From the NCBI GenBank assembly GCA_026387775.1, contig JAPLLC010000092.1, positions 1 to 52,224 of the forward strand: 52,224 nucleotides of DNA, in the 5' to 3' direction. The stretch comes from Candidatus Methylomirabilota bacterium. Its GTDB lineage: Bacteria; Methylomirabilota; Methylomirabilia; Methylomirabilales; 2-02-FULL-66-22. Shown here piece after piece: positions 41,743 through 52,224 of this stretch (its first letter is position 1; every line of letters begins with the position of its first letter). The notes under the pieces were generated by a model, which was given only the letters and a program-made list of their open reading frames with translations, searched no databases and was not told the origin of the DNA. A program made the position numbers and the translations under genes.

Positions 41743-44700
41743 ATGCGCTGGATGCGGGCGACCAAGGCCAGGGTGGCTTGCGCCCTGATTCTCGTCCCCT
41801 TCGCCATGCTCGCGCTGGCGGTCCTGGCTCCCGTCGCCGCCATGCAGGTTCCCGCCGTGAGGCGGCAGGTCCACCGCTGGGTGGAAGACCAGCTCTCCCG
41901 ATCCCTTGGGAGAGAGGTCCGGATGGAAGGCGCGGCCATCCGCCCGTGGTGGGGGCGCCTCGACCTCGCGCGGATCCGGGTGGCCGCCGGCGAGACCTTG
42001 GGGGCGGGGACGCTCTTCGAGAGCGAGGCGCTCCGGCTGCACTGGAGCTGGAAGGCGCTGCTCCGGCGCTCCATCGTCCTCGATCGGATCACCCTCGTCC
42101 ACCCCCGGCTCACCCTCCACTCGACCGTGACCTCGGCCGCCGGTACCCCCCTCGTCCGCCCCCGGCTCACCCTCCGCTCGACCGTGACCTCGGCCGCCGG
42201 TACCCGTGACCTGTTCTCGGTGTTCCTCCAGCCCCGCCCCATCGCCATGGACAGGTGGACGCTCGCGATCCACCTGGCGGAGATCGAGAATGGTCTGATC
42301 GCCTGGGGGGCGGACCGAGCCGGCGGGCGGGTCGAGGGACTCTCCGGCACGCTGCGCTGGCCGGAAGATCCTGTCGGGGAACCCGCGATCCTCCTGAGCC
42401 TCCGCGCCGCCCGCCTTCCCCTCCGGATCGGCGATGCCGCGCGGGAGCTCCGGCAGGCGAGCCTGCAGGGCGAGCTGACCTCGCGCGCCCTCGTCGTGAC
42501 CTCGGCGGAGGTCCAGATGGCCGGCGTCCGGCTCACGGCGGCGGGCCATATCCTCGATCCCGGCGGGGCCGCGCGGGCGGATCTGCGCCTGAAGCTCGCC
42601 GCGCCGCTGGCCGCCCTGTTCGGTCTGGCGGGGATCCCAAAGGAGATGGACGGCTCCCTCGACCTCGAGGGACGCCTGGATGGGCCCTGGCCCCGGGTCG
42701 CCTTTCGAGGCGACGGCAAGCTGCGCATCCGGCAGACGGCAAAGGGGGACGACCCTGTGCCCATCTCGGTGCGATGGGCCGCGGGCCGCCTGGAGATCGA
42801 AACGACAGCCCCGGACCGGCCGGGATCGCTCTCGGCCGGGATCGCGCTGCAGCCGGCGACGGGGACCTATGCGGCGCGCCTCACGGTCCGCGGGGCGGAT
42901 CTCGCCGAGCTGACCGGCTTGCCCGCGCTGGCGGCCCATCTGGCCGGCCTCAGCCTACCGGCGAATCTGCGCGGCCGGCTCACCGCCGACGTGGATCTTT
43001 CCGGCCGGGGCGCGGACCTGACGGCCCTGCGGGGGCGCGGCGCCATCCGCGTGGACGGACTCTCAGTCGAGGGGGACATCCCAAGCGGCAGGCTGGAGGC
43101 TCGAGTCGTCGCCACCGCTTCACGCCTCAGCCTGGAGACATTCGCCCTGGAGATTCCGGGCGGGTCCATCCAGGGGAGCGGGAGCATAGGATTTCAGGAC
43201 GGACGCGTGGAGTTGCCCCTCCAGGCCGATCTCCGGGACGTGGGGGCCTTCGCGAGTGGATTCGGCCTCCCTCTGCTGGGGGGGAAGGCCGCGCTGCAGG
43301 GCCGGCTGACGGGCAGCCGGGAGGCTCCCAGATTTCAGGGCCGCCTCACCTGGCAGAATCCCCGCGTCGCCTTGCAGACCTTCGACCAGATCGAGGCCGA
43401 CCTCGATCTGGTCCCCCGCCTGTTCCGGACCTCGCGCCTCGTCGTGCGCGTCGGGTCGACAACCGCCACGCTCCGCGGCAGCGTGGCGGCCCGCGGCAGC
43501 GCCCCCCTTCGCACGCTCAACCTGAAACAGGATCTCGTCCTGGATCTCCAGGGCCAGGTCAACCCGGGCCGGACCGCCGACATCGCCCGCTTCCTCCCGG
43601 ACGACCTGGGGGTGCGCGGCGCCTTCCGGGCCAGCGTGAGGATCGCGGGAACACCGGGCGCGCCGACCGGCGAGGCGGACGTCACCCTGACGAGCCCCGA
43701 GACCTGGGGCGAGCGCTGGCAGCAAGGCACGGTCAGGGTCAAGCTCCTGCCGGACGGCATCGAGCTCGGCCCCCTCCTCTTGCAGCGGGGGACCGAGCGG
43801 GTGAGCGGGGCTCTCCACCTCGGAAAGGGCGGCGGCCTGAAGGGTCGGCTCGTCGGAGCGGGCCTGGAGCTGTCCGGGCTGAACTTCCTCGCGGACAGCC
43901 GGGTGGCGGGGCAGGCAGACATCCAGGCAGACGTACAGGGATCGGCGGGCGAGCTAAAAGTGACCGGCAGCGCCACCTCTGCGGCCCTGCTCTTCCGGGA
44001 CATCCCGCTCGGCCCCGCCGCCGGCGCGTTCAGCATCGCCAAGCAGGGCACGGAGCTGGATCTGACCATCCAGAACGGTGCCCAGCGAATCCGGCTGAAC
44101 CTCGGCCCTCCTCCGGACCGCAGCCTGCGGCTTGACCTGAACCTCGCAAATGCCGATCTGGACCCGATCCTCCGGATACCAGGCGTCGAACCGCTTCGCT
44201 CTTGGCAGGCCCAGGGAACCGGGCGCCTCCTCCTCCGCGGGGCGGCGAGCGACCTGGCGGCGGCCACGGGCGAGGCCACGCTCAGCGCTCTGCGCCTCCG
44301 AAAAGACGAGCAGGTCTGGAATAACCGCAGCCCCGTGGAGCTGTCCTGGCGGGGACAGACGGTCACGCTGCGCCAGATGCAGCTTCGCTCGGGGGAAAAG
44401 GAGGTGGATCTCCGCGGCACGCTGGGAGGCGACGCGGAGAACGATCTCCAGGTGAAGGGCGCCCTGCCGCTGGTGGCCTTGCAGGGGAGGCTCCCGCTCG
44501 TTTCACTTCTGGCGGGTGAGGCGACGGTCAACCTGCGTGTCCGAGGCCCTCTGAGCGCACCCGAACTGCAGGGAGCGCTGGCCGTTGCCGGAGGTCGCCT
44601 CATGCTTCGTGGAATCCCCGCACCCTTCGAAGATCTCCGCGGCACCGCGGAGCTTCAGGGGCAGCGGGTATTCCTGCGCGCCGTCCAGGGCCGCCTGGGC

Positions 44701-45399
44701 GGTGGGAGTTTCCAGGGGTCGGGCGAGCTTGCCCGTGACGGAGGGCGGTGGAGCTTTCGGACCACCTTCCAGGAAGATGGTGGGCGGGCGGAGCATCTCC
44801 TGACCGGATTCTCCAAGGAGAAGGGCGAGGTGACGGGCGCCCTCTCGCTGGGCGGCTCCCTGGCGAGCCACGGGCAGGACGAGGACGGTTTCTGGTCGAA
44901 CCTGGAGGGCAACCTCAAGCTCGTCATGCGGGACGGCCAGATGGGGCGTCAGGCGGTCACGACCAGGATCTTGTCCATCATCAACATCGGGCAGCTTTTC
45001 GACGTCAAGGACCTCGACGTGTCCGCCCAGGGCTTGCCGTACCAGAGGCTCACGGCCGACATCGCGATCAAGCAAGGTGTCGCCCGGACGGAGAACCTCC
45101 TCTTCGAGAGCCGGGCCTTCAACCTGAGCGCGGTCGGAGAGGTGAATCTGGTCGAGGAGACCATCGAGATGAACCTGGCGGTCAGGCCCTTCCAGAATGT
45201 TGACAGGTTCCTCAGCAAGATTCCCCTGGCCGGGTGGCTCCTGGGCGGGAAGGAGAAGAGCGTGGCGGTGAGCTTCTACCGGGTCACCGGGTCCCTCAAG
45301 GATCCCCAGGTAACGTCGCTCCCGGCGAAAAGCCTGGGCCGAAACGCCTTCGGCATCTTCCGCCGCCTGCTTGACATCCCCGAGGCGATCATGCCCTAA
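41743..45399 (+). CDS. YhdP/AsmA-like large envelope protein
   Basis: N-terminal TM anchor, long beta-repeat region, C-terminal FNLSAVGEVNLVEETIEMNLAVRPFQNVDRFLSKIPLAGWLLGG. Confidence 0.82.
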   Translation: MRWMRATKARVACALILVPFAMLALAVLAPVAAMQVPAVRRQVHRWVEDQLSRSLGREVRMEGAAIRPWWGRLDLARIRVAAGETLGAGTLFESEALRLHWSWKALLRRSIVLDRITLVHPRLTLHSTVTSAAGTPLVRPRLTLRSTVTSAAGTRDLFSVFLQPRPIAMDRWTLAIHLAEIENGLIAWGADRAGGRVEGLSGTLRWPEDPVGEPAILLSLRAARLPLRIGDAARELRQASLQGELTSRALVVTSAEVQMAGVRLTAAGHILDPGGAARADLRLKLAAPLAALFGLAGIPKEMDGSLDLEGRLDGPWPRVAFRGDGKLRIRQTAKGDDPVPISVRWAAGRLEIETTAPDRPGSLSAGIALQPATGTYAARLTVRGADLAELTGLPALAAHLAGLSLPANLRGRLTADVDLSGRGADLTALRGRGAIRVDGLSVEGDIPSGRLEARVVATASRLSLETFALEIPGGSIQGSGSIGFQDGRVELPLQADLRDVGAFASGFGLPLLGGKAALQGRLTGSREAPRFQGRLTWQNPRVALQTFDQIEADLDLVPRLFRTSRLVVRVGSTTATLRGSVAARGSAPLRTLNLKQDLVLDLQGQVNPGRTADIARFLPDDLGVRGAFRASVRIAGTPGAPTGEADVTLTSPETWGERWQQGTVRVKLLPDGIELGPLLLQRGTERVSGALHLGKGGGLKGRLVGAGLELSGLNFLADSRVAGQADIQADVQGSAGELKVTGSATSAALLFRDIPLGPAAGAFSIAKQGTELDLTIQNGAQRIRLNLGPPPDRSLRLDLNLANADLDPILRIPGVEPLRSWQAQGTGRLLLRGAASDLAAATGEATLSALRLRKDEQVWNNRSPVELSWRGQTVTLRQMQLRSGEKEVDLRGTLGGDAENDLQVKGALPLVALQGRLPLVSLLAGEATVNLRVRGPLSAPELQGALAVAGGRLMLRGIPAPFEDLRGTAELQGQRVFLRAVQGRLGGGSFQGSGELARDGGRWSFRTTFQEDGGRAEHLLTGFSKEKGEVTGALSLGGSLASHGQDEDGFWSNLEGNLKLVMRDGQMGRQAVTTRILSIINIGQLFDVKDLDVSAQGLPYQRLTADIAIKQGVARTENLLFESRAFNLSAVGEVNLVEETIEMNLAVRPFQNVDRFLSKIPLAGWLLGGKEKSVAVSFYRVTGSLKDPQVTSLPAKSLGRNAFGIFRRLLDIPEAIMP
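42094..42207 (+). repeat. 57-bp in-frame tandem repeat (2 copies)
   Basis: LVHPRLTLHSTVTSAAGTP (42094-42150) and LVRPRLTLRSTVTSAAGTR (42151-42207); four nucleotide differences. Confidence 0.97.
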
Positions 45400-45416: not shown

Positions 45417-48400
45417 TCATCCCTGACTCGTAAGCGCATACACCATGTCGCCGACAAAGCGCCGGAACGAGTCGTTCTCGACGAACTGTTTGTAGACCTG
45501 CGTGTCGTCCTTGAGCAAAAGCTGCATCACCTTGCCGAGCGCCAGGTCGTGGGCCATGCGCGCGGTGTGCGGCGTGTTCTCCTTGGCGTTCTGGTAGGCC
45601 TTGTCGGCGGCAACCTTCGGCGCGATGTCGTCGCGGATACGGCGCGCGACGCGGTCGGCGTCCGTGAACAGCGTGCCGAAGTGCTCGTTGAAGGCCTTGA
45701 GGATGTTGCTCAGGCGGTCGAGCTCGGGCTCGGGCTTGCGGCCCCCGCCATCCGCCGGCACGGGCTCGATCTGCGCATCTTCATCCGCCAGCGCGATCTT
45801 CATCACCGCCTTCTTCTCGACGCGGTAGCTGTCCATGTCGATGGCTTCGAGGATGCCCTTGGCGAGGTCCTCCTCCTTCGGCGCGGGCAGCTTGGGGGTG
45901 AGCAGGTTCAGCAGGATCGAGAGCTTCTCCCATTCGCGGTTGGTGTAGGGCATGATCGAGGCGAGAAAGTCGTACGTGCGGCAGAACGCCTTCGCCTTGC
46001 CCTTGAAGTCCACCTGCTGGTCCTCGCCGAGCCTGCCCGTGTAGACCGCCACGCACGCATCAAGGATCGGGTCGAGCTTGTCGCGGTCGGCGCCGCCGAG
46101 GAACAACTCGACGAACTGCTGCACCTGCTCCGGTGAATACACCTGCGCACGATCCAGCGCCGTCTTCAGGTCGTGGAGCTTGTTGGGGTCGGTCTCCTCC
46201 GCGAGCAGTGTCGTGCGGTAGTAGTCCTGGAAGGCGAAGGTAATCGCCTCTGAATTGTTCTGGAAGTCGAGCACGAAGCAGTCGTGCTTCTGCGGATGCG
46301 CACGGTTGAGCCGTGACAGCGTCTGCACCGCCTTGATCCCTGAGAGTGGCTTGTCCACGTACATCGTGTGCAAGAGCGGCTCGTCGTAGCCGGTCTGAAA
46401 CTTGTCCGCGCAGATCAGGAAGCGGTACGGATCGGCCTGGATCTTCTCGGCGATATCGCCGCTCGGAAAACCGTTGAGCGAGGTCTCGCTGACCTTCCCC
46501 CCGCCGTAGTCATGCTCGCCCGAGAACGCGACGATGGCCTTGTATGGGCTCTTGCGTTCCTCCAGATATGCCTTCACCGCATGGAAATACTGGACCGCGC
46601 GCTCGATCCCGCTGCAGACGACCATCGCCCGCGCCTGCCCGCCGATCTTCCCGGGGGCGAGCACCTGCTCGTGGAAGTGATCGATCATGATCTCGGCCTT
46701 GAGCCGGATCGCGTGGTGGTGGCTCTCCACGTACTTGCGGAGCTTCTTGTTCGCCTTCTTGGTATCGAACTCCGGGTCGTCCTCGATCTTCTTGACCAGC
46801 TTGTAATAGCTCTCGACCGGGGTGTAGCTCTTGAGCACGTCAAGGATGAACCGCTCCTCGACCGCCTGCTTCATCGTGTAGCTGTGGAAGGGCCGGTGCT
46901 TGACCTTGCCCTCGGCGTCGGCCGGCAGCGCCTCGCCGAACATCTCCAGCGTCTTGTTCTTGGGCGTGGCGGTGAACGCGAAGTAGCTCGCGTTGGTCAG
47001 CATCTTGCGCGCCGCCATGCGCTGCTCCAACGCCTCGTTCACCGTGTCTTCCGGGTCGGTCTCCGTGTCCTTGCCCTCCGCCGCGTCGCCAAGCGCCTTG
47101 CTCATTGCCGCCGAGGTCTTGCCGCCCTGGCTCGAATGGGCCTCGTCGATGACGATGGCGAAGGTCTTGCCGCCCTCGGTAGCAATCTCGTCGAGGATGA
47201 AGGGAAACTTCTGCACCGTCGAGATAATGATCTTCTTGCCCTGCTCGATGAACTTGCGCAGGTCTCCCGAGTGCTCGGCGTGGCCCACCGTCGCGCCCAC
47301 CTGCATGAACTGCTTGATGGTCCGCTGGATCTGGTCGTCGAGGATGCGCCGGTCGGTGACCACGATCACCGAGTCGAAGATCTCCTTGCCGTCGCGCTTC
47401 AAGCCGATGAGTTGGTGCGCGAGCCAGGCGATGGAGTTCGACTTGCCGCTGCCCGCCGAGTGTTGGACGAGGTAGCGCTTGCCCGCTCCGTGGGCGCGCA
47501 CATCAGCCAGGGCCCTGCGCACCACGCCGAGCTGGTGGTAACGCGGAAAGACCTGGCTGCGTTTCTTCCGGCCCGTCTTCTGGTGCTTGGTCTCGACGAT
47601 CTGGGCGTAGTTCTCGAGGATGTCGGTCAGCCCCGCCGGAGTGAGCACCGCTTTCCAGAGGTAGTCGGTCTTGAGGCCGTTCGGGTTGGGCGGGTTGCCC
47701 GCGCCGTCGTTGTAGCCCTTGTTGAGGGGGAGGAACCACGAGCCCTTGCCCATGAGCACGGTACACATGCGCACCTCGCCGTCGTCCACGGCGAAGTGCA
47801 CCACGCAGCGGCCGAACCCAAACAGCCGCTCGCGCGGGTCGCGGTCGCGGCGGTACTGCTCCACCGCGTCCTCCACCGTCTGCTTGGTGAGGCTGTTCTT
47901 CAGCTCGAACGTGGCGATGGGCAGCCCGTTGATAAACAGGCACAAGTCGAGCGCGCGGCGGGTCTCGTCGGTGCTGTAGGCGAGCTGGCGCGTGACCGAG
48001 AAGCGGTTCAAAGCGTGCAGCGCTTGCGCCTTGGCGTTGCCCTCCGAGGGCGTGCCGTAGAAGAGGTCGAAGTGCACCGGCCCGTGGTCCACGCCCTTGC
48101 GCAGCACATCGATGACGCCGCGCTTCCCGATCTCGGACGAGAGGCGCGCGAGGAATTTGAGCCGGCTGATGTCCTTCGGGTCGCTGGCGGCGGCCAGCGC
48201 CAGCTTCTTGAACGCCTCGGGCTGAGTCGCTCGCAGGAAGGCAAAGAGCTGCGCCACGTCGACCGCGTGGGCGCGGTCGTAGTCACGGGCGCTGCCCGCA
48301 AAGTAGCCTGTGCCCCCATACGGCGGACGCGCCTCGGCCTCGACGCCCGGCGTGACGGCCAGGCCGCCTGCCTGCGCCGAACCTCCGGCAGGCAGGTCCG

Positions 48401-48461
48401 TGCCGGTCATGTGGCGCATGATGAGCGTTTCGAGGCCCTTCTCGGAGATGTCGGTGGTCAT
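45417..48461 (-). CDS. hsdR: type I restriction enzyme R subunit
   Basis: MTTDISEKGLETLIMRHMTG start with AGGAGG RBS; ATPase SAGSGKSNSIAWLAHQL, DEAHSSQGGKTS, SRLNRAHPQKHDCFVLDF. Confidence 0.96.
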   Translation of the reverse strand: MTTDISEKGLETLIMRHMTGTDLPAGGSAQAGGLAVTPGVEAEARPPYGGTGYFAGSARDYDRAHAVDVAQLFAFLRATQPEAFKKLALAAASDPKDISRLKFLARLSSEIGKRGVIDVLRKGVDHGPVHFDLFYGTPSEGNAKAQALHALNRFSVTRQLAYSTDETRRALDLCLFINGLPIATFELKNSLTKQTVEDAVEQYRRDRDPRERLFGFGRCVVHFAVDDGEVRMCTVLMGKGSWFLPLNKGYNDGAGNPPNPNGLKTDYLWKAVLTPAGLTDILENYAQIVETKHQKTGRKKRSQVFPRYHQLGVVRRALADVRAHGAGKRYLVQHSAGSGKSNSIAWLAHQLIGLKRDGKEIFDSVIVVTDRRILDDQIQRTIKQFMQVGATVGHAEHSGDLRKFIEQGKKIIISTVQKFPFILDEIATEGGKTFAIVIDEAHSSQGGKTSAAMSKALGDAAEGKDTETDPEDTVNEALEQRMAARKMLTNASYFAFTATPKNKTLEMFGEALPADAEGKVKHRPFHSYTMKQAVEERFILDVLKSYTPVESYYKLVKKIEDDPEFDTKKANKKLRKYVESHHHAIRLKAEIMIDHFHEQVLAPGKIGGQARAMVVCSGIERAVQYFHAVKAYLEERKSPYKAIVAFSGEHDYGGGKVSETSLNGFPSGDIAEKIQADPYRFLICADKFQTGYDEPLLHTMYVDKPLSGIKAVQTLSRLNRAHPQKHDCFVLDFQNNSEAITFAFQDYYRTTLLAEETDPNKLHDLKTALDRAQVYSPEQVQQFVELFLGGADRDKLDPILDACVAVYTGRLGEDQQVDFKGKAKAFCRTYDFLASIMPYTNREWEKLSILLNLLTPKLPAPKEEDLAKGILEAIDMDSYRVEKKAVMKIALADEDAQIEPVPADGGGRKPEPELDRLSNILKAFNEHFGTLFTDADRVARRIRDDIAPKVAADKAYQNAKENTPHTARMAHDLALGKVMQLLLKDDTQVYKQFVENDSFRRFVGDMVYALTSQG
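48367..48396. repeat. hairpin repeat embedded in hsdR coding sequence
   Basis: CCTGCCTG...CAGGCAGG 8-bp arms around CGCCGAACCTCCGG. Confidence 0.7.
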
Positions 48462-48733
48462 GCGGACCTCCTCTTGGGTGGAGCGCCGACAGATCCCATC
48501 AAACAACCGTCAAACAACCAGCGGTCATATAACCCGATGAATAACATAGCCTTGCGGCGCAGGCCGATGCAAAGGTCTGTCGCAGGATGATCGTTCATCA
48601 AGCGATCCCCGCCGATTGCTCGGGTTGGGTACGGCATCGCCGTTGTGAACTCATCCGTTCTTCCCCTGGTATGGTCGAGGAGAGGTTCATGGTGGAGTCG
48701 GTCTAACAGGGTGGCTAGTTCCTCCGCGTTCAT
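48458..48733 (-). CDS. 91-aa ORF between hsdS and hsdR, unknown function
   Basis: ATG overlaps hsdS stop (ATGA) and its stop overlaps the hsdR ATG (ATGA). Confidence 0.45.
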   Translation of the reverse strand: MNAEELATLLDRLHHEPLLDHTRGRTDEFTTAMPYPTRAIGGDRLMNDHPATDLCIGLRRKAMLFIGLYDRWLFDGCLMGSVGAPPKRRSA

Positions 48734-50148
48734 TCAGTGGCCTCCTCGTCGGAGTGGTCGGCCTCGTTGCTCAAGTTGGCGGGCTCGTCGGTGGCGGCGG
48801 GTGCGGTTTCCTCGGGCAGCTTGGCCGCCGCCTCGCGCACGTCGAGCTTGCCGGTCACCACATCGGCGATGAGGCGGGTGCGGTATTCGCGGAGGAGTTC
48901 GATCTCGCGTTCGAGGCGGGAGATGGCGGTGAGCAACGGCGCCTGCTCGTCAGCTAGGGAATCAAGTATTGCCTGTTGCTCCGCGAGCGAAGGAAACGGA
49001 ACAGCCAAGTTTGCATACTTGTCAGCACCGATATTCTGAATCGTCGCGGTATTGAACGTTGAGTCTTTCCAGGCAGCGAATGCCCTGCTCTGGGTGAATG
49101 CAAAGAGAAACTCTGGAGACACTAGTCCTCGGTGCGGTCTTGCACGGATCAGGTATCCAGCATGGCAAGCAGCCCCCGTGTCCTTGACAACTAGGAACGC
49201 CTTGCCGACAGTAGCTCCGCTTCTGGCCAACAGTATGTCGCCTGGTTCAACCAGGAAATCACATGCAATACTTGGAGGGAGTGAGCGAAACGTCTCGGCT
49301 TTGAGTGAACCGTCTGCACGAAAGTCAGTGATGCGGATATAGCGCGGCCAGTCGGGGTTTGTGAATTCAGCTGCAGCGTTTGCGCCATAAGTCAGTCGCC
49401 CTTTGATCAGGTGTCTCAACCGCCGTACCCCCCAATGCTGCAGAATGTCGCCGAGCCAGGGGATACCGGAGGGTTTGAGGGGGACGGAGGTCGCCTGCCC
49501 TGAGCCTGTCGAGTGGAGGCCGCGGGTGACGGCGCGGTGGATGATGGCCTGCTTCTGCTCCGTGAGCAGCGCGATCACCTTCCGCTTCGCCCGGATCGCC
49601 CGCTCCAGCCGCCCGTTCGCCCAGTCCAGAAACCGCCCGATTGCAGCTTGCTCTTCAGCCGGAGGCAGGGGCATGTAGGCCCGACTCAACCTTTCGTAGT
49701 CGATGTTCTGACCTTCGCGAATGCCCGTCACGAACAGTGTCAAACTGCTAATGAAGTCGGGCGACTTGAAGAAACGCGAGTAGTAGCCTTGACGCACCTC
49801 TCGTCTCGGTGTGAGGATCGTATAAGCGGGACTGATGATGCCGCGACAGTGCGCGAGCTCGATACCCCCCTCGAATGAACGGAGGCTAATGACGAAGTCA
49901 CCCGTCTCAACAAGCTTGAGAAGGTGGAAGTCCTTCATCGCCGTTACGGTCCGCGCGCCGTAATGATCCTTGCGGACGACGCCCTTGCTTTGTGTTGCTG
50001 CAAGCAAAGGTTCCTCTGGGAAGCCCTTCTGAATTCGTTCATTGAAAAGGAACTTCATGCGGCGTTGGCCCCAATGCCCCGGCACCTTCCCGAGCCACGG
50101 CAATCCCGACTCCTTGTATTTCGGATACGGCCTGAGGTCGGCGATCAT
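48730..50148 (-). CDS. hsdS: type I restriction-modification specificity subunit
   Basis: Two-TRD layout: SGLPWLGKVPGHW, PPAEEQAAIGRFLDWANGRLERAI, SGIPWLGDILQHW, PSLAEQQAILDSL. Confidence 0.95.
   Translation of the reverse strand: MIADLRPYPKYKESGLPWLGKVPGHWGQRRMKFLFNERIQKGFPEEPLLAATQSKGVVRKDHYGARTVTAMKDFHLLKLVETGDFVISLRSFEGGIELAHCRGIISPAYTILTPRREVRQGYYSRFFKSPDFISSLTLFVTGIREGQNIDYERLSRAYMPLPPAEEQAAIGRFLDWANGRLERAIRAKRKVIALLTEQKQAIIHRAVTRGLHSTGSGQATSVPLKPSGIPWLGDILQHWGVRRLRHLIKGRLTYGANAAAEFTNPDWPRYIRITDFRADGSLKAETFRSLPPSIACDFLVEPGDILLARSGATVGKAFLVVKDTGAACHAGYLIRARPHRGLVSPEFLFAFTQSRAFAAWKDSTFNTATIQNIGADKYANLAVPFPSLAEQQAILDSLADEQAPLLTAISRLEREIELLREYRTRLIADVVTGKLDVREAAAKLPEETAPAATDEPANLSNEADHSDEEATE
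49492..49516. repeat. repeat-like insertion within hsdS
   Basis: CGCCTGCCCTGAGCCTGTCGAGTGG, encoding (H)STGSGQA between two conserved hsdS blocks. Confidence 0.55.
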
Positions 50149-50453
50149 GGCTGGCTTTCCCGTTCATCGCTATCCCAGTATTCACGGTAGGCGTTGATGT
50201 AGTCGGCGGTGGCGGCCGGGTTGATATCCCAATAGTGACGGCAGAGATTCTTATACATCCGCAGTACGGGTTCGTGGCCGCAGAAGTCGAGCAGGCGATC
50301 AAGCGTGTGCTCGATGTGCCGAATATCGCGACTGCGGGTGCGCAGGATGTCGTCGACCACTGGCTGGTATTGCTGCGCAGCCTGCTGCTGAAGGTCACGC
50401 AGGCCCCGAGCGAGGCTTCTGATTGCCTGGTACGTGGCGTCGCCGGAATTCAT
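50145..50453 (-). CDS. 102-aa protein of unknown function in hsd operon
   Basis: MNSGDATYQAIRSLARGLRDLQQQAAQQYQPVVDDILRTRSRD...; ATGA overlaps on both sides. Confidence 0.75.
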   Translation of the reverse strand: MNSGDATYQAIRSLARGLRDLQQQAAQQYQPVVDDILRTRSRDIRHIEHTLDRLLDFCGHEPVLRMYKNLCRHYWDINPAATADYINAYREYWDSDERESQP

Positions 50454-51592
50454 TGCCGACCTTCCGGGTTGGGGAGCCGCTTGACCGCCTGCTCCCTGGC
50501 GTGTTCCATCGCCTGATGCAGCCGGGCGCGGAGCAGCGGCAGCGGCGGCAACTCCGTGAGGTACTCGCTGACACGGATGGATTTGGCATCGAGCTGAAGC
50601 AGTTCCACCTGCTCGGCATCGGTGGAGGCGCACAGGATGAGTCCGATCGGCGCTTCCTCGCTGGGAGCGCGTTCGTGTTTGTCCAGCCAGCGCAGGTACA
50701 GCTCCATCTGGCCAACATGCGCGGGCTGGAATGACTCCAGTTTCAATTCGACGGCAATCAGCCTGCGGAGGTAGCGGTGGAAGAAGAGCAGGTCGAGATG
50801 AAAATCGTCCTTGCCTACGCTCATGCGCTTTTGTCGGGCGACGAAGGCGAAGCCGGTGCCCAGCTCCAGCAGGACACCCTCGATCTCGCGCAAGATGGCG
50901 CTCTCGAGGTCGCGCTCGCTGTAGGCTCCCGTGAGTCCCAGCAGATCGAGAAGGTACGGATCGCGAAAGACGATGTCGGGGGTCATGTGTCCGTCGCGCA
51001 GTTGCGCAAGCTCCGCCGAGATGACGGCTTCCGGTTTTCTCGACAACGCGGTGCGCTGGAACAGCATGCCGCCGATCTTCTGCCGGAGCGTGCGCACATC
51101 CCAGCGCTCGATTCGGCACATTTCGGCGTAGAAATCGCGAGCCATCTGATCTTTGATCGGCAGCAGCGCATGAACATGTGACCAGCTCAATTGTTGTGAC
51201 AGCGTCACGACAATGGCCTCATCGGGGAACAACTGCGCGAACTGGATCATGCGGGCAATTTCGGCATAGCTAAAGCCGCGCCCATACTCCGCCGTCAATT
51301 CTCGTGACACGGTCACGAGAATTTGTCTTCCATACGCGGCCCTACCGCCTTGGAGATTCTCATTCAAAAGGCGCCGTCCCACGTGCCAGCAGAGCAACGT
51401 CTGTGTGGAATAGGCTACCGTGGCAATCCGCTGGCGTGCGGACTGGATGAGGCTGCGCAAATCCGAGAGGAGGCCCGCAGCATCAACGACTGCGGGCGTT
51501 TTTGTCTCGACGGCTTGGCTGCGTTGTTTGCGATCCTCTGGCCGTAGCGCGGAGGGCCTGGGCTTTGGGTATGAAGGGGCGGCCTTCTTCAT
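50450..51592 (-). CDS. DUF1016/YhcG-like PD-(D/E)XK nuclease domain protein
   Basis: VAYSTQTLLCWHVGRRLLNE, GRGFSYAEIARMIQFAQLFP, DFHLDLLFFHRYLRRLIAVELKLE, GLILCAS. Confidence 0.92.
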   Translation of the reverse strand: MKKAAPSYPKPRPSALRPEDRKQRSQAVETKTPAVVDAAGLLSDLRSLIQSARQRIATVAYSTQTLLCWHVGRRLLNENLQGGRAAYGRQILVTVSRELTAEYGRGFSYAEIARMIQFAQLFPDEAIVVTLSQQLSWSHVHALLPIKDQMARDFYAEMCRIERWDVRTLRQKIGGMLFQRTALSRKPEAVISAELAQLRDGHMTPDIVFRDPYLLDLLGLTGAYSERDLESAILREIEGVLLELGTGFAFVARQKRMSVGKDDFHLDLLFFHRYLRRLIAVELKLESFQPAHVGQMELYLRWLDKHERAPSEEAPIGLILCASTDAEQVELLQLDAKSIRVSEYLTELPPLPLLRARLHQAMEHAREQAVKRLPNPEGRQ

Positions 51593-52224
51593 GGCTTGGC
51601 GCCCCCTTTCAGCAATCCATCCAGCAGCCCCTCGGCCTCTTTCTCGACGGCGAGGATGTCGGCGCTGATCTCTTCGAGCGTACGCAGCGGCTGCGGTTTG
51701 TAGAAGTGGCGGGTGAAGCTCACCTCGTAGCCGACCTTGGTGGCGTCCTCTTTGATCCAGGCATCGGGCGTGTAGGGCAGCACCTCGCGGCGGATGAAGG
51801 CTTCGATGCCGCCTTCTTCCAGGAGCGGCACCTGCTCGGTGTCGCGCAGGTCGGAGTCGGGCTCATACTCCACGAGGCGTGGAGCACCCTCGCCCCCGGC
51901 CCCTCTCCCAGGGGTAGAGGGGAGCTCGAACAGGCCGCGCAGCGCGTCGGCCTTCGCCTTGCCAGGCTTGTGCACCTTAGCAATAACCGGCGGCGCGGTC
52001 TCGACGCGCCAGCTCACAGCCTTCAGGATCTGCTTCAGGTCGGCGGCGGAGAGCCTGATGCCGGCCTGATCGAGCGCGGCATCCACACGGGCGCGGAAGA
52101 TGTTGTGGTCCTCGAAGAGCTTGTCGCCTAATGCCTCCCGCAACGCCGTAGCCGCATCGACGAGGCGGCCGTCGCGCTCCCAGGTCTTGGGGTCGAGTAG
52201 CTTCTTTTTCTTCTTCTCGGGCAG
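51589..52224 (-). CDS. hsdM: type I restriction-modification M subunit, C-terminal part (5' end outside window)
   Basis: LPEKKKKKLLDPKTWERDGRL...VEYEPDSDLRDTEQVPLLEEGGIEAFIRREVLPYTPDAWI; reading frame continues past 52224. Confidence 0.9.
   Translation of the reverse strand: MPEKKKKKLLDPKTWERDGRLVDAATALREALGDKLFEDHNIFRARVDAALDQAGIRLSAADLKQILKAVSWRVETAPPVIAKVHKPGKAKADALRGLFELPSTPGRGAGGEGAPRLVEYEPDSDLRDTEQVPLLEEGGIEAFIRREVLPYTPDAWIKEDATKVGYEVSFTRHFYKPQPLRTLEEISADILAVEKEAEGLLDGLLKGGAKP
51900..51922. repeat. hairpin repeat embedded in hsdM coding sequence
   Basis: CCCCTCT-CCCAGGGGT-AGAGGGG. Confidence 0.7.

Follow-up and report, generated by a model that had tools for sequence, protein, structure and literature searches.

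Type I restriction-modification (R-M) systems with nested defense cargo are already known. In the RRDM island of enteropathogenic Escherichia coli (EPEC), DarTG2 is found exactly between hsdS and hsdR, and the hsdS-hsdR joint has been proposed as a defense hotspot (PMC12255303). The type I hsd locus EcoprrI harbors the gene of a second defense nuclease, PrrC, a tRNA anticodon nuclease with ABC-ATPase motifs (PMC12707154, PMC2610378), and accessory genes are likewise found within the Campylobacter jejuni hsd loci that carry rlo genes (Miller et al. 2005, cited in PMC2610378). For the YhcG (DUF1016) family, a survey from 2005 found just one linkage to a type I R-M cluster (PMC1189080). The present analysis concerns a 52,224-nt contig of a Candidatus Methylomirabilota bacterium (GCA_026387775.1, contig JAPLLC010000092.1, our C166), taken as a whole and called the window hereafter, which by its domain matches carries on the minus strand a type I R-M operon of the order hsdM–DUF1016(YhcG)–p102–hsdS–hsdR. 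We consider the best explanation of the locus, at a probability of about 0.7, to be a type I R-M chassis, probably acquired horizontally, with two cargo slots, in which DUF1016 and the 102-residue p102 are cargo and a 91-residue open reading frame (ORF) between hsdS and hsdR is not a gene. The one uncharacterized component is p102.

The operon resembles the RRDM island in that hsdM, hsdS and hsdR enclose other defense genes, and, as in RRDM, two relatives (L007 and the Meiothermus locus L102; loci of the comparison are numbered L, genomes G and contigs C) carry DarTG between hsdS and hsdR. In contrast to RRDM, the cargo of the window is located between hsdM and hsdS, its hsdS-hsdR slot is very probably a remnant without DarTG, and no RptR gene was identified here, the region upstream of hsdM being visible on contig C181 only. 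The nested second nuclease gene is shared with EcoprrI; unlike PrrC, however, DUF1016 is a PD-(D/E)XK protein that is often free-standing, and Pfam and PADLOC scans of the window operon returned none of the ABC-ATPase and anticodon-nuclease domains of PrrC/RloC. The C. jejuni loci differ in their genes and, as far as the citing paper describes them, include no DUF1016-p102 pair.

Domain matches bear out the type I R-M assignment, which had been made earlier from the letters of the window. The C-terminal 211 residues of hsdM (51589..52224; PADLOC MTase_I, E = 9e-40) are present, cut by the contig end where the gene runs off at 52224, and this fragment is 65-85% identical to the hsdM C-termini of relatives. 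The 472-residue specificity subunit encoded by hsdS (48730..50148) shows Methylase_S (7e-9) in two stretches and PADLOC Specificity_I (1e-89) over residues 5-442, and thus has two target-recognition domains. The 1014-residue HsdR (45417..48461) combines a PD-(D/E)XK nuclease with a superfamily 2 (SF2) translocase (HSDR_N 1e-18, SWI2_SNF2 1e-27, T1R_D3-like 5e-14), with FELKN, GSGKS and DEAH visible in the translation; its match to TIGR00348 (1e-57) lies under the curated cut-off of that model, and it is 67-89% identical to full-length relatives. A strong Shine-Dalgarno (SD) sequence for hsdR, AGGAGG, is read directly at 48467..48472.

The sequence-only reading had described six genes with a 4-bp ATGA overlap at every junction, from which it took DUF1016 and the 102- and 91-residue proteins to be integral subunits under tight stoichiometric control. 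All five ATGA sites are present exactly where it placed them on the minus strand, and four of them are real gene junctions. The fifth (48458..48461), where the 91-residue ORF ends and hsdR starts, is automatic, because hsdR begins with ATGAC and any ORF open in that frame stops there; since the ORF is very probably no gene, the count of six genes is wrong in substance. At the corresponding joints of related loci, ATGA or GTGA overlaps (together NTGA) are found in 11/12 relatives for hsdM/DUF1016 (51589..51592), 17/18 for DUF1016/p102 (50450..50453) and 15/15 for p102/hsdS (50145..50148), while the ATGA at the hsdS end (48730..48733) is the hsdR start in relatives with an empty slot, where the hsdS/hsdR joint is NTGA in 5/5. 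Overlaps and gene order are thus conserved across several phyla, and the regular start-stop coupling fits translational coupling. Being kept in the relatives, the overlaps are not due to chance, and the comparison of loci indicates an architecture that is ancestral and maintained. The pattern is nevertheless not peculiar to this variant, because 4-bp overlaps also join the genes at 5/5 junctions of a plasmid-borne type I operon of Azospira (hsdM-unknown-DUF1016-nucleotidyltransferase-hsdS-hsdR), which belongs to another hsd lineage, and they are found between 7/36 codirectional neighbors over 50 kb of E. coli MG1655. Tight stoichiometric control cannot be inferred from the overlaps alone.

Relatives of p102 were found at 22 loci in one scan of GTDB contigs, and the usual order there is hsdM-DUF1016-p102-hsdS-(slot)-hsdR, in metagenome-assembled genomes labeled Betaproteobacteria, Nitrospirota, Planctomycetota and others. 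So as not to select for p102, plasmids were searched with the HsdR and HsdM of this subfamily. Among the HsdR relatives so obtained (57-82% identity), those of Aeromonas, Enterobacter and Niallia belong to operons of hsdM-hsdS-hsdR only, with an empty hsdM-hsdS slot. In other operons of the same subfamily this slot is filled with DUF262 (Meiothermus), with DUF433 and PIN-like genes (Synechocystis pSYSG), or with DUF1016 without p102 (Sphaerotilus). In L006, L009 and L016 among the p102 loci, a divergent paralogue has taken the place of DUF1016, of which fragments remain next to it; in L018 DUF1016 is split by an insertion. In all four p102 is kept, and in L015 DUF1016 is lost. Absence, replacement and changes of linkage (see below) together indicate a mobile operon in which DUF1016 and p102 recur as cargo and are not defining subunits. 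That both, and the 91-residue protein with them, are integral, with stoichiometry fixed by ATGA coupling, would agree with overlaps kept at nearly every junction, with an order shared by several phyla and with the purifying selection on p102, but it is improbable given homologous loci without DUF1016 and p102 (Aeromonas, Enterobacter, Niallia, Meiothermus, Synechocystis), which the sequence-only reading had itself named as a refutation, DUF1016 replaced or decayed beside intact p102 and hsdS, a 91-residue ORF without convincing relatives, and equally regular overlaps in hsd operons with other cargo. What remains of the earlier proposal is that DUF1016 and p102 are real genes of the operon, recurrent and in a fixed place across several phyla. 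Both slots are occupied by other defense or toxin genes in two of the plasmid loci of the same HsdM/HsdR subfamily, by DUF262, DarTG, AAA and DUF4276 genes in Meiothermus (L102:1655-13512) and by PIN/DUF433, nucleotidyltransferase, zeta toxin and DarTG genes in Synechocystis pSYSG (L106:1-8622).

The 380-residue DUF1016 protein (50450..51592) was identified with both Pfam and PADLOC; its matches to DUF1016_N (2.8e-38) and YhcG_C (2e-45) lie far above the curated cut-offs, and it matches PDC-S02 (7e-118), a label in the PADLOC library of known and candidate defense proteins. It thus shares with the YhcG/DUF1016 family (COG4804, PADLOC PDC-S02) the same two domains and the same catalytic-type residues. 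The PD-(D/E)XK motif of the family is E-D-E(I/L/V)K (PMC1189080), and over 17 sequences D267 and K284 are invariant and E282 nearly so (E282-L-K284). An AlphaFold model of the protein reached a predicted local distance difference test (pLDDT) score of 66, too poor for a fold search. A tree built from 66 DUF1016 sequences shows at least 11 gains or losses of hsd linkage on branches with good support, an approximate count since the labels embedded and alone were taken from 1.5-kb flanks and single-round phmmer; one clade of 19 rows (support 99), which includes the window, is wholly hsd-embedded and does not follow taxonomy. In contrast to the single R-M link of the 2005 survey, hsd linkage is therefore recurrent here, in several lineages. 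Such repeated independent entry into hsd operons, along with a gene nested in the operon and expressed with it, like PrrC in EcoprrI (PMC12707154, PMC2610378), might tentatively point to a guardian of the PrrC type, a possibility well short of even odds: the Hsd complex would silence DUF1016, possibly via p102, and phage anti-restriction proteins would free the nuclease, so that the infected cell is killed or arrested. DUF1016 is, however, also free-standing, as with yhcG of E. coli K-12 and in 21/30 sampled Burkholderiales loci, so that silencing by Hsd cannot be general, and some hsd-DUF1016 operons lack p102.

The gene p102 (50145..50453) encodes a 102-residue protein, predicted to be all-helical and without known family, that is linked to type I R-M. 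It is conserved at identities of 51-85%. An alignment of 19 sequences has 27 invariant columns; in the codons, variability is greatest at third positions and dN/dS averages ~0.28 over sequence pairs, a pattern that marks p102 as a genuine protein under purifying selection. An AlphaFold (AF2) prediction gave four helices with a pLDDT of 87, for which neither profile comparison nor a Foldseek fold search returned a match in the PDB; Pfam and other profile scans gave no family above its curated cut-off and no helix-turn-helix (HTH) family match. Weak matches to ImpA_N (0.002) and TssA (0.006) fall under the curated cut-offs. The family is rare, with p102 in 5/399 genomes in the order of L019 (Aquabacterium terrae S2, Burkholderiales) and in 5/396 in the phylum of L017 (Nitrospirota by record title); the sample of its own phylum holds p102 of the window itself alone, and no relatives were found in viral contigs or in plasmids.

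In two distant loci, L023 and L094, p102 is found upstream of hsdM without DUF1016. In L094 (8123-16305) this distant p102 precedes hsdM-hsdS-hsdR, followed by RadC-like and DarT-like genes (assigned by eye), with short overlaps chaining the genes. As the small repressor RptR of the EPEC RRDM island is also encoded upstream of hsdM (PMC12255303), p102, being small, all-helical and tied to type I R-M, could conceivably be a transcriptional regulator of the operon; this is quite unlikely, however, because at most loci p102 sits inside the operon, with DUF1016 before it and hsdS after it, and because it matches no HTH family and resembles no PDB chain in profile or fold searches, in comparisons that did not include RptR itself directly. 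A pairing of DUF1016 and p102 as a toxin-antitoxin-like unit hitch-hiking in the operon would suit two adjacent, coupled genes in a slot that elsewhere holds genes of toxin-antitoxin type (DUF433-PIN in pSYSG, or a nucleotidyltransferase beside DUF1016), but it too is rather unlikely, since each gene occurs without the other and p102 persists in the loci with a replaced DUF1016 (L006, L009, L016).

The hsdS-hsdR slot (48458..48733) contains the 91-residue ORF, which the sequence-only reading had counted as an integral gene. It is rejected as a gene, because searches of viral contigs, plasmids and its own phylum gave no convincing relatives, because its codon score is low for a coding sequence, at the lower limit of the range of the hsd genes, and because its ATGA at the hsdR start is automatic; in relatives, moreover, the slot is empty or otherwise filled. 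In L017, L019, L022 and L024, hsdS directly overlaps hsdR, and the 3' end of hsdS forms the SD-like stretch and start of hsdR, which begins with ATGA in most relatives. The window keeps a similar hsdS 3' end (GACGAGGAGGCCACTGAATGA), followed after ~270 bp by a second SD and ATGA at which hsdR starts, and in relatives with cargo the SD-like stretch and ATGA at the hsdS end are the start of SLFN_AlbA_2 or UG5 reverse transcriptase (RT) genes. The slot holds SLFN_AlbA_2 in L005, L014 and L018, DarT-DarG in L007, and a UG5 RT with a nitrilase in L011, while L015 shows an apparent deletion scar of an AlbA_2 gene. In L011 (5705-8637) the RT is of the UG5 type (PADLOC RT_UG5_small), the nitrilase is a separate gene, and the overlap with hsdS is ATGA.

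A short motif is shared by the interval in the window and some of these slots. The last third of the ORF holds TTGAYGGKT-N2-TTGAT, a motif defined after inspection of the sequences, which in the 709 kb collected is confined to slots with cargo or a scar, immediately before hsdR; the copy in the window is TTGACGGTTGTTTGAT (48498..48513). Pairs of TTGAYGGGTA-N-TTGAT, 88-89 bp apart, are seen between the cargo genes and hsdR in L005 (13156/13244), L007 (11676/11764) and L018 (17191/17280). Common to loci with different cargo, these paired repeats may be an hsdR promoter element or a recombination site. The gap in the window gave no significant overall alignment to the cargo slots of relatives (z 0.2-2.8) and points to no particular lost cargo; recognizable in it are the repeat motif next to hsdR and a short GCGACAGAC stretch shared with L005 alone. 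An Rfam search gave no match at E≤1. On these comparisons, the 91-residue interval is very probably a non-coding remnant of the variable hsdS-hsdR slot together with the hsdR upstream region.

Several features suggest that the operon came from elsewhere. In-frame, repeat-derived inserts absent from all aligned relatives are found in hsdM (51886..51924, 8 residues net) and hsdS (49494..49512, 7 residues net), both resembling dispersed repeats, and hsdR has an in-frame 10-residue insert (LPAGGSAQAG, 48363..48392) that is also absent from relatives. Allowing up to two mismatches, the hsdS repeat is single-copy in the host genome, whereas G097 (to which L007 belongs) holds nine copies of it. The hsdM repeat is likewise single-copy in the host when up to three mismatches are allowed; a relaxed core pattern of this repeat class occurs 0 times in the host, 7 times in G097, 29 times in G096 and 62 times in G099, all three being genomes of relatives in which such repeats are multi-copy. 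Judged from these sequence matches, the hsdM and hsdS inserts are a tracer of horizontal transfer. The GC content of the operon is ~61-64% vs ~67% for most of the window. Because of the single-copy repeat inserts, the lower GC content and the lack of a p102 relative in the phylum sample, the operon was probably acquired horizontally from another lineage.

Contig C181 of the same assembly ends within hsdM, where its terminal 68 bp are 91% identical to the 68 bp with which the window fragment of the gene starts. The hsdM part on C181 comprises ~590 N-terminal codons, 86-90% identical to the hsdM of close relatives and including NPPY, a form of the NPP(Y/F) motif of HsdM N6-adenine methyltransferases. 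It is probably the missing portion of the window gene; C181 and the window probably lie end to end, with sequence differences between strains where they meet. Upstream of hsdM on C181 (30000-40682; G000, L107), a cysteine-synthase-like gene and a small YoeB/RelE-like ORF were read by eye. On the other side of the operon, a long AsmA-like gene (41743-45399, read by eye) adjoins it on the same contig; near the N-terminus of this gene, at 42100-42240, two neighboring in-frame repeats of ~18 residues (LVxPRLTLxSTVTSAAGT) were likewise seen by eye.

Besides the approximate nature of the linkage-change count, the following points weigh against a horizontally acquired two-slot chassis. The assembly has an estimated contamination of 6%, making a foreign contig the alternative to an acquired operon, although the AsmA-like gene shares the contig. 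As hsdM is split over two contigs whose shared 68-bp end is just 91% identical, contiguity is inferred. The p102 loci were gathered using p102 itself, so that the constancy within them is subject to ascertainment bias, and three p102 relatives (L090, L091, L092) have no hsd gene in view.

For the chassis with two cargo slots, the following mechanism is proposed. By analogy with the family, HsdM2S would methylate and HsdR2M2S would restrict unmethylated DNA. The hsdM-hsdS slot carries the DUF1016 nuclease gene and p102, with the hsdS-hsdR slot apparently empty save for remnant DNA. The gene starts up to hsdS sit in the preceding stop codon, where ribosomes probably restart on the next gene, and new cargo arriving at such a joint would inherit co-expression. 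DUF1016 is most likely a second-line antiphage nuclease, acting alongside restriction or upon its failure, as suggested by the analogy of PrrC in EcoprrI. As for p102, its linkage hints at a small adaptor most likely touching the Hsd complex and not an obligate partner of DUF1016.

Type I R-M operons act as a chassis for other defense genes, as this locus illustrates. Cargo is found at the very stop-start joints through which translation is coupled, which means that a new gene is co-expressed at once. Our results update the statement of 2005 that yhcG-family genes have no conserved neighbors apart from one R-M cluster, and single out p102 as an uncharacterized, strongly conserved protein family in a five-gene operon. 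It is conceivable, if doubtful, that p102 is an undescribed accessory subunit or licensing factor of type I enzymes that couples the Hsd complex to the nested DUF1016, in which case the operon would be an integrated two-stage defense with a swappable second stage.

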